A stretch of 64,000 nt of DNA from Agromyces sp. SYSU T00194 (lineage in GTDB: Bacteria > Actinomycetota > Actinomycetes > Actinomycetales > Microbacteriaceae). A program made the translations under genes and the position numbers. Numbering within the stretch: position 1 is the stretch's first letter; each line of letters opens with the position of its first letter. This document shows positions 54,700 through 63,754 of the stretch, piece after piece. Below the pieces are notes generated by a model. The model did not search any database, had not been told where the DNA came from, and saw only the letters and a list, made by a program, of their open reading frames with translations. The stretch is taken from NCBI RefSeq assembly GCF_040496035.1, contig NZ_JBEPJZ010000002.1:918442-982441 (forward strand), given 5' to 3'.

Positions 54700-55641
54700 T
54701 CAGGCGAAGCGCACCGACTGCTGCAGCCGGGTGCGCACCTCCATGACCTCGCCGCCGCCGATCAGCGCGGAGCCGGGCAGGCCGGTGCGCAGCACGCCGG
54801 GCAGCCGGGAGCGCTGCACGATCGCGGTCACCGCGCCGCGGATCGACCCGAGCACCTGCAGGTCCTCCTCGGAGTCGCCGTCGGGCACCACGACGAGCAG
54901 GCACGTGAACTTCACGTGGGCCGCGCGGCCGACGGCCTTGGCGCGCTGCGCGAGCGCACGCATCGGCTTCTCGCCGCCCAGCGCCTCGCCGATGAGCTCG
55001 CCGCGGCGGATGCGCACCGGCCCGCCCCAGTCCTCGGACGCGATGGCGAACAGCCCGGTGGGCCCGAGCACGATGTGGTCGAGCTTGGCGGGCAACCCCG
55101 GCCCCGCGGCATCCGTCGCCACGTCGTGCCAGGCCGTGTAGGCGATGCCGAGCGTCGACACCGTGCGCGCGGTGGCCTCTTCGGCGAGCGCGTCGGCCAG
55201 CACGTGCCGGATCTCGCGCGGCGCGCGGCGCACGAGCTCGGCGTCGAACGGGTCGGGCAGGTCGACGCCACGGCCCGCCCACTCGCGGACGAGCTCGAGG
55301 TAGCGCACGCGCGAGACCCCGCCCGGGTGTCCGTGGCTGCGCGTGGTGGGGCGCGTGTCGCGCCGCTCGCCCTGCGTGCGCGGCATCGACCACGAGCCGG
55401 CCTCCGCATCGCCGGCCGACGTGCGCGGCCGGCCGCCCCGGTCGTACGCCGCTCGTGCCTCCGCGGTGCCGACGCGCTCCCACGCGGCCTGCACGGCGTG
55501 GAACCGGTCGGGGTCGCCGCCCGTGTCGGGATGCGTCTCGCGGAGCTTCCGGCGGTACGCCGCGCGGAGCTCGCCGGTGGACGCGTCCGCGGCCACGCCG
55601 AGGATCTCGTACGGCGTCGCCTGGAGCGGGCTGTCGGGCAT
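54700..55641 (-). CDS. J-domain protein fused to a NERD-like nuclease-related domain
   Basis: 313 residues. Residues 8-65 form a J domain with helix II/III flanking the HPD tripeptide (LRETHPDTGGDPDRF). After a Ser/Arg/Gly linker (65-105) comes an alpha/beta domain with LDHIVLGPTGLFAIASEDWGG and later CLLVVVPDG, resembling NERD/restriction-like sensor domains. No Zn-finger or C-terminal substrate domain of DnaJ. Probably recruits Hsp70 to a nucleic-acid or protein target; specific role unknown. Confidence 0.78.
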   Translation of the reverse strand: MPDSPLQATPYEILGVAADASTGELRAAYRRKLRETHPDTGGDPDRFHAVQAAWERVGTAEARAAYDRGGRPRTSAGDAEAGSWSMPRTQGERRDTRPTTRSHGHPGGVSRVRYLELVREWAGRGVDLPDPFDAELVRRAPREIRHVLADALAEEATARTVSTLGIAYTAWHDVATDAAGPGLPAKLDHIVLGPTGLFAIASEDWGGPVRIRRGELIGEALGGEKPMRALAQRAKAVGRAAHVKFTCLLVVVPDGDSEEDLQVLGSIRGAVTAIVQRSRLPGVLRTGLPGSALIGGGEVMEVRTRLQQSVRFA

Positions 55642-55750
55642 CGCGGGCAACGCCTCCGGGGTCGAGGGAACGGGAATCGAATCCCGACCCTACCGCGCCC
55701 GCCCGAGTAGACTCCGAGCACATTCCGAGCCCCGCCGAGGAAGGAACGAC

Positions 55751-56244: not shown

Positions 56245-56988
56245 ATGCGCGAGCGCGAGGCCCCGCCCGACCGACGCCGCCGTCGTGCACTGCGCACGCT
56301 GGGGCTCGCGCGCCTGGCCGTCGCCGTGGTCGAGGTGCTCGCGCTGATCGAGAACTTCCGGTACGTCCTCGGCTTCCGCAGCTTCGCCGCGGTGAACTTC
56401 TTCAGCTACTTCACCGTGCAGAGCGCATTCCTCACCGTGCTGGTGATCGGCGCGAGCGGCGTGGTGGCGGTGCTCGGGCGGCGCGAGCCGCACTGGTTCA
56501 CGGGCGTCCGCTGCCTGGTCACCACCTACGTGGTCATCTCCGGCATCGTGTTCGGCCTGATCGTCTACCAGGCCCGCGCGACCGGCTACCGCATCGACGT
56601 GCCGCCGTCCGACCAGGTGCTGCACTTCGTGGTGCCGGTCGTGCTCGTGGTCGACTGGCTGCTCGAGACGGTGCTCGGCGTGCGGCACGTGCCGGTGACG
56701 TGGCGGATGCTGTGGTGGGCGCCCCTCTTCCCCGCCCTGTGGCTCGTGTTCACGCTCGTCCGCGGGCCGTCGGTCGGCTGGTATCCGTACTTCTTCCTCG
56801 ACCCGCTGCAGGTCGGCGGCGCGCCCGGCATCGCGTTCTACTGCGCGATCGTGCTCGCCGTCATCCTGGTCGTGGCGGTGCTCCTCGTCGCGGCGACCCG
56901 CATCGTGCGCCGCGAGGGCGCCGGCACGCTGGACCCGGAGCCGGATGCCGCGGCGGACGCACGCGTGCTCGAGGCATCCGCTCGCTGA
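56245..56988 (+). CDS. Pr6Pr family six-helix membrane protein
   Basis: 247 residues with six predicted helices; NFFSYFTVQSAFLTVLVI and LHFVVPVVLVVDWLL are characteristic of the Pr6Pr (FAR-17a/AIG1-like) group. A basic N-terminal stretch precedes helix 1 and a polar C-terminal tail ends the protein. Function unknown; stands between DUF1761 and the permuted oxidase, on the opposite strand to the latter. Confidence 0.85.
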   Translation: MREREAPPDRRRRRALRTLGLARLAVAVVEVLALIENFRYVLGFRSFAAVNFFSYFTVQSAFLTVLVIGASGVVAVLGRREPHWFTGVRCLVTTYVVISGIVFGLIVYQARATGYRIDVPPSDQVLHFVVPVVLVVDWLLETVLGVRHVPVTWRMLWWAPLFPALWLVFTLVRGPSVGWYPYFFLDPLQVGGAPGIAFYCAIVLAVILVVAVLLVAATRIVRREGAGTLDPEPDAAADARVLEASAR

Positions 56989-57004: not shown

Positions 57005-58459
57005 TCAGCCCGCGGAGGGCTCGAGACCGGTGCTCGCGAAGGGCTCGAGGCTGGTGCGCGCGAGCGCGACGACCTCGTCGTCGGATGCCTCCGCGAGCGC
57101 GTCCGCACGCTCGGCGGCGAGCAGGCCCACGAGCACCGGCTCGTCAGGGGTCGGACTCAGGTCGAGCCAGCCCGCGAACGGGTCGTCGGGTGCGCCGACC
57201 ACCGTGCGCGCCGGCGGCCCCGGCGGCAGGAACGGCTCGTCGAAACGGAGCCAGACCTGGTCGAGCCGACCCGTGCCGAGCGCCGAGATGGCCCGCGCGT
57301 GCCGCAGCGGCAACGACGGCGTGAACGCGATCGTGTGCGATCGCAGCACCCCGAGCGGCACCGTGACGATCGCGCGGTGGGCCGCGAACGACTCCCCGGT
57401 CTCGAGCCGCAGCGACACGGCGTCGCCCGAGTAGTCGATGCTCAGCACGGCGCCGCCGAGCAGCACGTCGAGGTCGGCCGCCTCGTCGCGCAGGAACTGC
57501 ACGTACGGCGTCTGGACGCGATCCTGCACGACCGCCTCGTCGGGCTCGAGTCCGCCGTACCAGGCGGAGATCCGCCGGGCGTCCGCGCCGGTGCGCACGC
57601 CCAGCACCGTGTCGAGCTGGTACGCGAGCCAGTCGGCCGGTGCGATGCCGTCGTCGCCCGGCTCGTCGGAGAGCCGCTCGGACGCGCCGGAGCGCAGCAG
57701 CGCGTTCGCCAGCGTGATGTCGTGCGGCTGGGCGCGCGCCCACTCGCGGGCCGCGGCGACCGCCTGCGCGCCGGCGTCGGAGGGGTCGACGGCCGTCCCG
57801 TCGGGCGCGTGCACGGTCGGGGTGAGGTCGAACGGCGCGGTCGACGTGCCGGCGCCGGCGAGACGTGCCTGCAGCCCGACGGCGTCGGCGGGCACGAACG
57901 CCGCGCCCAGCTCGACCGGCACGGGCCAGGCGTCGTCCTCGATGCTCCGGATCCTCCCGCCGATGCGGTCCCGGCCCTCCAGCACGACCACGCGGTAGCC
58001 CGCGTCGGCGAGCGCGCGGGCAGCGGTGATGCCCGCGAGGCCCGCGCCGACGACGGCGATGCGTTCGCCGGGCTCGGCGACCTCGGCGACCTGCACCGCG
58101 GCGCGCGCGCCCTGCTCGGCGGCGCCGCGGACGGTGCCGGGGTACGCGGTCGACGTCGCCTCGCCGGCGAGGAAGACCCGGTCGTCGAGGGGGACGGCCA
58201 GGTCGACGCGGTGCTGGGGGGTCGATCCGACGGCCTGGAAGCTGAATGCCCCGCGCGCGAACGGGTCGGTGCCCCACGCCGACCGCCGCATCGCCGCCGG
58301 CGCGGGCACCGCGTGGGCCACGGGGGTGCCGGTCGGGGTGGGCGTCGGGGTCGGGCTCGGCGTCGGCGACGCGGTCGGCGCGGGCGGCTCGGGCACGCAC
58401 CCGGCGAGCACCGCCGCGAGGCCCGCCGCGGAGCCGACCAGGAACGTGCGCCGTCGCAT
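57005..58459 (-). CDS. Tat-exported lipoprotein flavin amine oxidase with circularly permuted motif order
   Basis: 484 residues. The N terminus is a twin-arginine lipoprotein signal (RRRTF, then LAGC with Cys21) plus a Pro/Thr linker (22-46). Residues 58-125 hold what is normally the C terminus of flavin amine oxidases: SAWGTDPFARGAFSF, FLAGEATSTAYPGTVRGA. Only then comes the usual N-terminal FAD Rossmann motif VVGAGLAGITAARAL (136-150) and EGRDRIGGRI. The protein ends at ALARTSLEPFAS, the point where the normal C-terminal segment would begin. Hence the two ends look swapped. Coupled (TGATG) to the methyltransferase gene upstream. Substrate unknown. Confidence 0.88.
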   Translation of the reverse strand: MRRRTFLVGSAAGLAAVLAGCVPEPPAPTASPTPSPTPTPTPTGTPVAHAVPAPAAMRRSAWGTDPFARGAFSFQAVGSTPQHRVDLAVPLDDRVFLAGEATSTAYPGTVRGAAEQGARAAVQVAEVAEPGERIAVVGAGLAGITAARALADAGYRVVVLEGRDRIGGRIRSIEDDAWPVPVELGAAFVPADAVGLQARLAGAGTSTAPFDLTPTVHAPDGTAVDPSDAGAQAVAAAREWARAQPHDITLANALLRSGASERLSDEPGDDGIAPADWLAYQLDTVLGVRTGADARRISAWYGGLEPDEAVVQDRVQTPYVQFLRDEAADLDVLLGGAVLSIDYSGDAVSLRLETGESFAAHRAIVTVPLGVLRSHTIAFTPSLPLRHARAISALGTGRLDQVWLRFDEPFLPPGPPARTVVGAPDDPFAGWLDLSPTPDEPVLVGLLAAERADALAEASDDEVVALARTSLEPFASTGLEPSAG

Positions 58460-60003
58460 CAGTCGGTCCCGCCCGGCGCGTCCGCCGCCGCCAGCGCCGG
58501 CCCGAGCATGCCGCACAGCGCGAGCTCGAGCACGTCGGCCTCGAGCTCCTCGGCGAGGGCCGGTTCGTCGGCGTCGAGCAGTCCCGCGAGCGCGCTCGCG
58601 ATCGCCGCGACGGTGAGGCTGCCGTCGCTCGCGCCGACGAGCGCGGCCAGCGCCGTGCCCGCGTCGACCGTGCGCGCGAAGCCGCCGCCCTGCCGCAGCG
58701 TGATCGCCGTCGGGTCGTCCGACCCGGGCCAGTGGTGACGCTGCTCGGTGACGTCGCCGGCGACGACCGGACGCGCGGCGGCGACGTCGTCGGCCATGCG
58801 GTCGAACGCGGCGACGCACGCCTCCAGGTGCGGGCCGGGCGCCCCCGTCCCGAGCGGCCCGTGCTGACGCTCCTGGCGCCGGAGCCGGGCACGGCCGTCC
58901 GCGGGACGCCGTGCGAGCACGTACCCGAACCCCACGGCATCGACGCCGCGTTCCTCGAAGTCGTCGAGCCAGGCGCGGATGAGCGCGTCGTACCCGGGCG
59001 CACCGGGCCGGGTGCCCCCGTCGCGCACCCAGGTCTCGGCGTACTCGACCGGGTCGACCCGGTCTCGCTCGACCAGCCAGTACTCCAGGCCCGGTGCGAA
59101 CCAGCCCGCGGCGCGCTCGAGCCCGTCCGCGGCGCCCCGGTACTCCCAGTCGGCGAGCAGCTGCGCGCTCCCGCCCGGTGCGAGGTGCGCGTCGAGGCCG
59201 GCCAGCACCTCGGCGACGAGCGCATCGCCGACCATGCCACCGTCGCGGTACTCGTAGGCGGGCACGTCGGCCCGGCGGGGCGTGATCACGAACGGCGGGT
59301 TCGACACGATGCGATCGAACCGCTCCCCCGCGACCGGCGCGAACAGGCTGCCGAGGCGGAACTCGATGCGGTCGACGCCGTTGAGGGCCGCGTTCAGCGC
59401 CGCGTAGCGCAGCGCGCGGGCGCTGATGTCGGTGGCGACGACGCGGTCGGCGTGCCGGGCGGCGTGCAGCGCCTGGATGCCGCATCCGGTGCCGAGGTCG
59501 AGCGCAGACGCGACCGGAGCCTGCCACTGCAGCGACGCGAGCGTGCTCGACGCACCGCCGACGCCGAGCACGTGGTCCTCGGCGAGCGGGGCGCCGGTCT
59601 GCAGCTCGCCGGGGTCGGACGCGATCCACCACTCCGCCTCGCCCGCGCGGTCCTGGAACGCGTAGGGGCGCAGGTCGACGCGGGTGCGCACGTGCGCACC
59701 GTCGACGTCGACGAGGCCGAGTTCGGCGGCGCCCTCGACGCCCGCGGTCGGCAGCGCCCGCGCGAGGTCGTCGCGCAGGACGGTGCGGCCGAGCAGGAGG
59801 AGGAGCCCCAGCGTGGCCGAGGGCGCGTCGCCGGCGCGCTCCAACGCTCGCGCGGCGGGCACGGCGTCGCCGCGGTGCAGCGCGGCCTCGGCCTCCGCTC
59901 CCCAGAGCGCGTCGAGCCCGGCCACGGTGTAGCGCGCGGCGGCCAGGTCGGTCGCCAGCGCGGCCGCGAGCCGCCTCTCCGTCGCAGTCACCACGTGTCT
60001 CAT
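58459..60003 (-). CDS. Class I SAM-dependent methyltransferase (HemK-like, NPPF motif)
   Basis: 514 residues. An N-terminal helical domain (1-150) precedes the SAM-binding core ALDLGTGCGIQALHAA and the amide/adenine-methylase motif VSNPPFVI; a C-terminal domain of about 170 residues follows. This architecture is shared by a large actinobacterial group of unknown substrate; NPPF suggests methylation of a planar nitrogen in protein Gln or nucleic acid. Its stop shares a base with the oxidase ATG. Start ATG 60003 lacks a clear ribosome site; a GTG nine bases on is possible. Confidence 0.85.
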   Translation of the reverse strand: MRHVVTATERRLAAALATDLAAARYTVAGLDALWGAEAEAALHRGDAVPAARALERAGDAPSATLGLLLLLGRTVLRDDLARALPTAGVEGAAELGLVDVDGAHVRTRVDLRPYAFQDRAGEAEWWIASDPGELQTGAPLAEDHVLGVGGASSTLASLQWQAPVASALDLGTGCGIQALHAARHADRVVATDISARALRYAALNAALNGVDRIEFRLGSLFAPVAGERFDRIVSNPPFVITPRRADVPAYEYRDGGMVGDALVAEVLAGLDAHLAPGGSAQLLADWEYRGAADGLERAAGWFAPGLEYWLVERDRVDPVEYAETWVRDGGTRPGAPGYDALIRAWLDDFEERGVDAVGFGYVLARRPADGRARLRRQERQHGPLGTGAPGPHLEACVAAFDRMADDVAAARPVVAGDVTEQRHHWPGSDDPTAITLRQGGGFARTVDAGTALAALVGASDGSLTVAAIASALAGLLDADEPALAEELEADVLELALCGMLGPALAAADAPGGTD

Positions 60004-60509: not shown

Positions 60510-62369
60510 TCACCCTGCTGCGTCGAGGGATGCCGCATCGGTGACCGGCAGCCGGCACGCGAACTCGCGACACAGGTACGCCGTCGTCACACCGCCGCGC
60601 GTCGCGCGCCCCTCGAACAGCACGAACCCCGCATCGACCCAGTCGGCGACCCGCTCCTCCGCGACGACCACGGCGACGGACGCCCCGTGCCGTCGCGTCG
60701 CACGCACGAGCGCGTCGTCGGCATCGCCCGCCGGCGTCACGGTGACGAGCTGGGTCGTGCCGCGTTCGAGCGCCTCGGCGACGCGCAGCGCCCTGCCGAA
60801 CGCGAGCGGCTGGCGCACCATCGGCTCCGCCACCCGGGCGACGGCCGCCCGAGCGGCGTCGAGGTAGCGCCGATCGCCGGTCAGCCCGAAGAGGGTGACG
60901 GATGCCTCCGCGAGCGCGCTCGCTCCCGACGGCGTCGCCCCCTCCGACGGGTCCGCCTCGACCACCAGCCCCCGGGCGGCGAGCACCGGGTCGGCGCCGC
61001 CGGGTGCCGCGAACGGCGCACCGCCCTCCGATGCGGCGAGGATCGTCGCATCGACGAGGTCGCGGGCCGCGACCGCGAGTTCCGGGGCCCCGTCGGCCAG
61101 CGCGACGGCGAGGAGCCCGCCGGCGAGCATCCCGTGGTCCTCGAGCGTCGCGCGCGCCGCCGCCCGCTCCCCGTGCAGCGACATGCGCACGAGCCCTCCG
61201 GCCTCGTCGCGGTGCCGCTCGAGGAGCAGGGCCGCGGTCTCTCGTGCGGCGTCCACCCACCGGGGTTCGTCGAGCAGCGCACCGGCCGTCGCGAGCGCCC
61301 CGATCGCCAGCCCGTTCCAGCCGGTGAGGATCTTCTCGTCGAGCGCGGGGCGCGGCTGGGCGGCGCGCTCGGCGGCGTCGAGCCGGTAGTAGCCGCCCTC
61401 CGTGCGCGCGCCGCCCACCTCGCTCTCCGAGTCCTGCGCGCTGGCGAACCCGCCGTCGGGCTGCCGCAGCACGTCGAGCAGGAAGGCGGCGATCCCGTGC
61501 GCGGTCGCCGCCGCCCACGGCGCGTCCCCCCGCGCGGCGATCCGAGCGGTCGTCTCGAGCAGCTGCGCGTTGTCGTACAGCATCCGCTCGTAGTGCGGCT
61601 CGCTCCAGTCGGCGCGCGTGCCGTATCGGAAGAACCCGCCCTCGACCGGGTCGCGCAGCGGCGACGCGGCCATCGCGCGCAGGCTCCGCTCCGCCGACGC
61701 GGCCGCTTCGCCGCCGTGGGCGAGCAGGAACCCGAGCACGGGAGCGACGGGGAACTTCGGCGCGCCGCCGTAGCCGCCGAATGCGCGGTCCTCGAGCGCG
61801 ACCAGCGCGTCGGCCGCTGCATCGAGCGCTGCGCGGGAGGGCGGGCCGGCACTGTCGGGTCGCAGCGCGGATGCCTCGGCCAGTGCACCCGCGAGCGAGG
61901 ACGCAGTGGCGTCGACCTCGTCGCGGCGCTGCGTCCAGGCCTGCGCGACGGCGTCGAGCAGCTCGCCGAATCCGGGCACGCCGCCGGCGGGCCGCGGCGG
62001 GAAGTAGGTGCCGGCATAGAACGCTCGCCCCTCCGGCGTGGTGAACACCGTGAGCGGCCAGCCGAGGTTGCGGGTGAATGCGCTCGCGGCGGCGAGGTAC
62101 CCGGCGTCGACGTCGGGATGCTCCTCGCGGTCGACCTTGATCGCGACGAACCCGTCGCGCAGCTGCGCGGCGATCAGCGGGTCGCTGAAGCTCTCGCGTG
62201 CCATGACGTGGCACCAGTGGCAGGTGGCGTAGCCGATCGAGACGAGCACCGGCACGTCGCGGCGACGCGCCTCGGCGAACGCCTCGTCGCCCCAGGGCCA
62301 CCAGTCGACGGGGTTGGCCGCATGGGCGCGCAGGTAGGGGCTCAGCGCCCCCGCGAGTCGGTCGGCCAT
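60510..62369 (-). CDS. DUF255 thioredoxin-fold protein (YyaL/SPATA20-like)
   Basis: 619 residues. The N-terminal thioredoxin-like domain has the family CxxC in [16 protein letters not shown] and [15 protein letters not shown]; the rest is an (alpha/alpha) toroid with [20 protein letters not shown] and [13 protein letters not shown]. Possibly a thiol-dependent sugar epimerase-like enzyme; function unproven. Starts two bases after the G6PDH stop, so the two form an operon. Confidence 0.92.
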
Positions 62370-62371
62370 CG

Positions 62372-63754
62372 TCAGCGGTGCGGGGTGGTCGGCCAGGACG
62401 ACGGCCCGCCCGAACCCGCCGGGTACTCCTCGAGGGGCACCCGGTCCTCCGCCCACGCGGCCCGGATCGGCGTCACGATGCGCCAGCACGCCTCCGCCAT
62501 GTCACCGCTGACCGAGAGCAGCTCGTCGCCGTCGAGGATGCCGCCGAGCACCTCGCCGTAAGCACCGAGCCGCCCCTCGGTGGTGGTCGCCGACAGTTCG
62601 ACGGTGCGGAGCCCCAGCAGGTCGTCGGCGCGGTTCACGGCGACGTCGAGCGTGATGCGCTCCGGCTTCATGCCGATCCGGAGGCGCCGCCGCACGTCGC
62701 CGGCGAAGCCGACGGGCAGCGCGGTCGGCTCGCGGAACGTCACGACGATCTCCTCGCGCTCGTGGCCGATGGCCTTCCCGGACCGCAGCACGAACGGCAC
62801 GCCGTGCCAGCGCTCGGAGTTGACCTGCAGCGTCACCTCGGTCAGCGTCTCCGTCTCGTTGGCCGGGTCGACGCCGTCCTCGGCCGCGTAGTCGGGCATG
62901 ACCCGCGAGCCGATGGAGCCGGCGGTGTAGCGCGCGCGCCGGGTCGCGGTCGTCGCGTCGCTGCCCCACACGCGCGTCTGCTCGAGGACGTCGGCCATGG
63001 CGCGGTGCATCGCGTCGGGCTCGACCGACGGCGGCGGCTCCATGGCGATGAGCGCGAGCACCTGGAGGAGGTGGCTCTGCACCATGTCGAGGAGCGCCCC
63101 GGCGTGGTCGTAGTACCCGGCACGGCCCTCCAGGCCGAGGGATTCGTCGAAGACGACCTCGACGCGCTCGACGTGGTCGCGGTGCCACACCGACTCGAAC
63201 ATGTGGTTCGCGAATCGGAGGCCGGTCACGGACAGCACGGTGGTCTTTCCGAGGAAGTGGTCGACGCGCACCACCTGCACACCGTCGGGGAGTCGTGCGA
63301 GGAGGCCGTTGAACTCGCGCGCGCTCTCGAGGTCGGTGCCGAACGGCTTCTCGAGCGCGAGCACGGTGCCGTCGGGCACCGACATGTCGGCGAGGGTCTC
63401 GCACGCGGCATGGGCCACCGCGGGCGGGAGTGCGAAGTACACGGCCACGGGGCCGGGCAGGTCGTCGAAGAGCGCCTGCAGGTCGTCCCTGCTGGTGGCG
63501 TCCGCCTGGCGGTACCGAGCGGATGCCATGAGCTCGGCGACGAGCGGATCGTCCTCGTCCGCCCGCATCGACCGCCGCAGGCGCGCCCGCCACTCGTCGT
63601 CGCCGAGTGCGCTGCGTCCGACGCCGACCACGCGCAGGTGCTTGCGGCGGTCGAACATGAGCAGCTCGCCGAGTCCGGGCAGCAGCAGCCGCGCGGCGAG
63701 GTCGCCGTCGGCACCGAGGATCACGAACGTACGTCGCGTCACCATGCGGCCCAT
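62372..63754 (-). CDS. zwf: Glucose-6-phosphate dehydrogenase
   Basis: NAD(P)-dependent oxidation of glucose 6-phosphate; 460 residues (457 if ATG 63745 is used). The coenzyme motif is altered to [15 protein letters not shown] instead of GATGDLAxRKLxPAL. The active-site [11 protein letters not shown] is intact, as are ALEKPFG and [12 protein letters not shown]. It is followed by the DUF255 gene rather than by opcA/pgl/tkt, so it is probably a second, divergent G6PDH rather than the housekeeping copy. Confidence 0.88.

Follow-up and report, generated by a model that had tools for sequence, protein, structure and literature searches.

The window analysed here is the whole 64,000-nucleotide stretch of the genome of Agromyces sp. 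SYSU T00194 (Microbacteriaceae; contig NZ_JBEPJZ010000002.1, positions 918,442 to 982,441). It carries a gene for a flavin amine oxidoreductase whose segments, as read from the sequence, are in swapped order (Table 1). The start of this gene shares one base (TGATG, 58457-58461, minus strand) with the stop of the DUF7059/methyltransferase gene that lies upstream of it (58459-60003), and a gene for a Pr6Pr family membrane protein converges on it from the other side. The protein scores 186.8 bits against PF01593 (curated cut-off, 19.8) and holds in one chain both the Rossmann GxGxxG motif and the C-terminal-type GEAT/GTVxGA segments (residues 99-113) that bind flavin adenine dinucleotide (FAD).

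Table 1. Features of the locus; positions are those of the window, residues those of the oxidoreductase.
Feature	Position	Strand	Basis or remark
Permuted flavin amine oxidoreductase coding sequence (P0001)	57005..58459	-	484 aa, stop included; PF01593, 186.8 bits, three stretches
Residues 1-21: twin-arginine translocation (Tat)-type signal (RRRTFL), lipobox LAGC at end, Cys21	58397..58459	-	motif
Residues 22-50: linker rich in Pro/Thr/Ser, predicted disordered	58310..58396	-	sequence; low predicted local confidence (pLDDT)
Residues 51-127: moved segment, the canonical C terminus (VPxP, W..DPFARG, GEATS, PGTVRGA, last helix 110-127)	58079..58309	-	segment hidden Markov model (HMM) B; PF01593 profile 368-442; LSD2 699-774 match
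GEATS, residues 99-103	58151..58165	-	sequence; G99 and E100 invariant in alignment
PGTVRGA, residues 107-113	58121..58141	-	sequence
Residues 128-132: short new linker from old C-terminal helix to Rossmann strand 1	58064..58078	-	model: helix 110-127, strand 133-137
Residues 133-474: canonical N-terminal and central part, GAGLAG to last substrate-domain helix	57038..58063	-	
GAGLAG dinucleotide-binding motif, residues 138-143	58031..58048	-	sequence
Gln401 codon, flavin-N5 lysine position of the superfamily	57257..57259	-	aligned with LSD2 Lys; residue counts
Residues 475-484: new C-terminal tail beyond the break	57008..57037	-	
Pr6Pr family membrane protein, 247 aa (P0122), convergent with the oxidase, conserved partner	56245..56988	+	NF038065, 112.3 bits; adjacency

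The usual linear order of the superfamily, with the Rossmann strand first and the GEAT segment last, is not that of the window protein. An earlier note on this DNA had claimed that GEATS and PGTVRGA stand ahead of GAGLAG, which the sequence bears out, and that a W-x-DPFxRG segment had moved to the front with them, which is right as to location and off as to spacing, since the motif reads W62-x-x-DPFARG70 with two residues between W and D. Searched against the window's genome, PF01593 matches the minus strand in two pieces, profile positions 368-442 upstream and 1-366 downstream, and LSD2 and spermine oxidase match the same stretches in canonical order. The frame is single and continuous and the order recurs in 120 of 120 listed relatives (query included), so the note was also correct that no assembly join is involved, and chance can be set aside as well; no second intact GEATS was found at the C terminus, either in the sequence or by a segment-HMM scan. 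The AlphaFold2 model (mean pLDDT 90.5, predicted TM-score [pTM] 0.86) ends shortly past helix 460-474 and adopts the predicted fold of known superfamily members, which supports retention of the two-domain FAD fold despite the swapped chain. In both FAD segments, the substrate domain, the motifs and the predicted fold the protein thus resembles the PF01593 superfamily of LSD1/LSD2, spermine oxidase, polyamine oxidase and monoamine oxidase (MAO), and it differs in its swapped segments, its Tat lipoprotein signal and the glutamine that replaces the N5 lysine. Because the linear order is swapped, it is filed here as a permuted variant and not as an ordinary PF01593 member.

The chain is broken in one and the same loop in 23 of 23 permuted proteins inspected beside 11 canonical ones. 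A canonical example runs across this loop as ...ALRxxYG-xx-(V)PEPxxxxxTRWxxDP; permuted examples end in ...ALRRMYG or ...SLEPFA and begin, past any signal, with VPQPxxMxRTSWSxDP. The P-x-P is kept in many of the permuted proteins inspected, and several are without VPxP. The proposed ancestral chain would have run from the Rossmann strand through the substrate domain to the last FAD-domain segment; its old ends would then have been joined by about five residues and a new opening made in the loop that leads from the last substrate-domain helix to the W..DPF strand, and the same two-domain FAD fold would now be formed by a chain that begins with the old C-terminal segment. Tandem duplication followed by loss of both outer parts, the usual route, may have led there; no duplicated B-A-B intermediate was found among 244 proteins classed with the segment HMMs. 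Taken together, the HMM order, the AlphaFold2 model, the common break loop and the recurrence in at least 120 protein clusters strongly support the proposed permutation. Both parts come from one parent family, they are swapped within an uninterrupted frame and the old ends are linked, and the gene product is very likely a flavin amine oxidoreductase superfamily member that has undergone circular permutation in nature.

The homologue search proposed in the earlier note uncovered a permuted family. The best 120 proteins (query included) of 1855 scoring were listed, and two segment HMMs class all of them as permuted, while lower-ranked ones may include the canonical order; a motif regular expression, which proved too strict, saw the order in just 78 of the 120. 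Among 124 proteins from fetched loci, some of which repeat one another, the same HMMs found 67 permuted and 57 canonical, and the moved segment occurs twice in none of the 120 listed and 124 locus proteins. A junction-spanning profile gave a contiguous match in 61 of 199 Microbacteriaceae genomes, a further match (G012) that ends at a contig edge not being counted, and copies in Agromyces rhizosphaerae and A. mangrovi are 82 and 79% identical to the window protein. The same profile found no permuted structure among the best 60 of 229 matches in the PDB, the best stretch of each being limited to one half of the junction, first or second, and never spanning the whole.

Outside Microbacteriaceae, permuted members are rare and are found elsewhere in Actinomycetota and in Alphaproteobacteria. 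In partly overlapping samples, the permuted gene is carried by 4 genomes from two other families (order sample, n = 396), by 6 genomes outside the class, one with the gene split across two frames (phylum sample, n = 396), by 3 of 148 genomes of the class of G670 and by 2 of 13 genomes of family f16. A scan of named genomes, with 80 of 96 matches kept, added Actinomycetota-labelled metagenome-assembled genomes (MAGs; one Acidimicrobiales), IMCC26207, Streptomyces abyssalis, Streptomyces sp. NBC_00620 and Nocardiopsis ganjiahuensis, and in Alphaproteobacteria Henriciella, Oceanicaulis and two MAGs; the alphaproteobacterial L071 is permuted by both segment HMMs and contiguous junction. The Bifidobacterium breve label of two loci (L056, L057) is doubtful, the L057 protein grouping with that of actinobacterium IMCC26207 (L054). 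In two loci (L037 from G919, L075 from a Henriciella MAG) the permuted oxidase is split over two frames, through decay or sequencing error.

The amine oxidases of this superfamily have been under study for nearly a century. The permuted members have remained in plain sight, annotated as flavin monoamine oxidase family proteins, and the Pfam profile catches the window's protein in pieces. Among the open-licence PubMed Central (PMC) papers listed, a scope that leaves out subscription journals and preprints, none describes a natural permutation in this superfamily, judged by titles and the starts of abstracts. The family shows where nature cuts and rejoins the monoamine oxidase/LSD1 fold, and offers a natural test of enzyme-fold rewiring. 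With the permutation confirmed as family-wide, a conserved Pr6Pr partner and repeated loss of the N5 lysine stand out as new leads.

In the window, the oxidase and Pr6Pr genes lie tail-to-tail, the latter ending 16 nt from the oxidase stop, and this arrangement recurs in 58 of 58 cases on the same contig, all in Microbacteriaceae. In a comparison of 27 contexts, the window plus 26 picked from among the permuted-gene genomes, other neighbours are hardly conserved. The partner scores 112.3 bits against NF038065 (cut-off 30); it has no Pfam match, no PDB sequence match at E ≤ 1 and, for its model, no Foldseek match at E ≤ 0.001. The model is helical, a threonine and a histidine are invariant, and in these respects the partner may resemble AIG1/ADTRP/TMEM164-like proteins, with the lack of a Pfam or PDB sequence match setting it apart; some sources name Pr6Pr relatives "FAR-17a/AIG1-like". 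The name "Pr6Pr" is absent from the open-licence PMC papers searched, and the conserved pairing is a first functional handle on this membrane family. The pairing is looser in a few places: in L042 the Pr6Pr gene lies further away with another predicted gene in between, G029 has Pr6Pr and no oxidase within the 8 kb examined, and a fragmented Microbacteriaceae genome (G038, locus L158) has a divergent permuted oxidase without a Pr6Pr neighbour on a contig that is possibly a contaminant or a transfer. L050, L138 and L146 each have two Pr6Pr genes in the vicinity of the permuted oxidase.

Residue 401, glutamine in the window protein, aligns with a lysine of LSD2 that we take to be the flavin-N5 lysine (K661 in LSD1). 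The position was followed on a quick tree of 109 rows drawn from the 244 classed proteins and put back in canonical order, with near-copies and truncated loci removed by hand (23 of the 120 listed permuted rows are included). All 52 canonical and all 29 other permuted rows keep the lysine, as do 8 of the 28 window-type rows; the remaining 20 have V (5), R (4), T (4), Q (3), L (2), S (1) or A (1), and this distribution requires at least four changes on the tree. In an alignment of 74 of the 120 listed proteins, lysine is present in 38. The loss is confined to Microbacteriaceae and provides a natural series on the choice between oxygen and another acceptor.

According to a recent study, the N5 lysine is nearly universal and the enzyme that reacts most slowly with O2 has glutamate in its place, Tat-exported members with an adjoining cytochrome c gene are dehydrogenases, and members with the Tat signal only are mostly fast with O2 (Akram et al., 2025; PMC12224317). 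The NicA2/Pnao-type amine dehydrogenases described there are likewise Tat-exported superfamily members, and dehydrogenase chemistry of their kind is proposed here. They differ from the window family in that a cytochrome c gene adjoins theirs, whereas Pr6Pr takes this place here, and NicA2 retains the lysine that is Gln401 in the window protein (PMC12224317); their segment order is assumed to be canonical. A search for CxxCH in predicted genes gave no convincing cytochrome c neighbour in 42 loci and the window stretch, or in a further 20 loci. The candidates set aside were a MoeB gene in L071, a window open reading frame (60513-62489) that is not the next neighbour, and frames in L144 and L147 that are unlike cytochromes and are not next neighbours either.

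By analogy with its family, the window protein is very probably an amine-oxidising enzyme that passes hydride to FAD. Compatible with the permutation, and adding a function to it, is the tentative possibility that the permuted enzymes of Microbacteriaceae act as dehydrogenases and form a two-gene membrane module together with Pr6Pr. Held at the membrane by its lipid anchor, the enzyme would oxidise an amine that may itself be attached to a membrane lipid, and the electrons would go to the respiratory chain or some acceptor other than O2; Pr6Pr, perhaps AIG1/ADTRP/TMEM164-like, would make or remove the substrate or help to pass on the electrons. A membrane amine dehydrogenase module is preferred to a simple oxidase with low confidence, and an acceptor other than O2 is a hypothesis that can be tested and not a finding. 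More speculative still is a scenario in which a once-permuted, lipid-anchored amine dehydrogenase family became locked in Microbacteriaceae into the convergent Pr6Pr module and then repeatedly lost its oxygen-activating lysine, so that a rewired FAD fold would now serve a new exported system for electron transfer or lipid amines.

Since many bacterial phyla and the human enzymes show the canonical order, the permuted one is regarded as derived, and the permutation most likely arose once, ahead of the window's lineage, which is the simplest reading and not proof. Several points weigh against a single permutation of a working enzyme. The ranges shown by VIA-align, a sequential method, omit nearly all of residues 51-127, the structural aligners applied to the confident model were all sequential, and the Foldseek table carries no ranges. 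The free quick tree requires five order changes, the shared loop could be the sole site at which a break is tolerated, and glutamine stands in place of the N5 lysine. Repeated, independent changes of order in the same loop would fit the five changes and the patchy occurrence in another class (3/148 genomes) and another family (2/13), but they appear unlikely: the starred branches of the tree force only one change, a tree with the permuted proteins in one clade is better by 5.26 log units and does not lead to rejection of a single origin (approximately unbiased test, p-AU 0.587), and the common loop and the P-x-P motif recur as described above.

Tat motif and lipobox (RRxFL plus L-A-G-C21) occur in 116 of the 120 listed permuted proteins on motif evidence only; of the four others, three have predicted starts seemingly too far upstream and one is N-terminally cut. 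R3, R4, F6 and C21 are invariant in the 74-row alignment, and the window protein is probably Tat-exported and lipid-anchored outside the membrane. This frequency would suit the earlier note's proposal that tethering drove the rearrangement by giving the chain a new N terminus at a site suited to a membrane anchor. The proposal is not supported and seems very improbable, because canonical-order Tat lipoproteins exist, so that tethering needs no permutation, and because permuted proteins exist with no recognisable signal, so that anchoring and permutation are separable. Canonical examples are L039 and L040, which share signal type, superfamily and host family with the window protein, and elsewhere L080, L102 and, by eye, L099. 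Permuted L033-L036 (families f15 and f16, same order) have no Tat-lipobox in the 110 residues that precede the domain; in L035 and L036 a methionine stands a few residues ahead of the moved strand, and for L033 and L034 the start is harder to place. Signal labels of tree rows were pattern-based and corrected by eye: the pattern gave no signal for L099, L054 and L057, which on inspection resemble Tat lipoproteins, and the Tat label of L033 and L034 stems from arginine pairs in an upstream stretch. The alphaproteobacterial permuted L071 and L077 have a Tat-like signal without an obvious lipobox.

That the window copy is a decaying or non-catalytic relic, as Gln401 might suggest, is the least probable account, given an intact frame, intact FAD motifs, a retained partner gene and close copies in A. 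rhizosphaerae and A. mangrovi that share the same glutamine.

The upstream methyltransferase was considered as a partner and rejected, a relative being present in just 1 of 26 other Microbacteriaceae contexts (L051) and not adjacent there. Elsewhere in the window, a minus-strand gene at 54703-55650 encodes a DnaJ domain followed by a weak NERD-like region.
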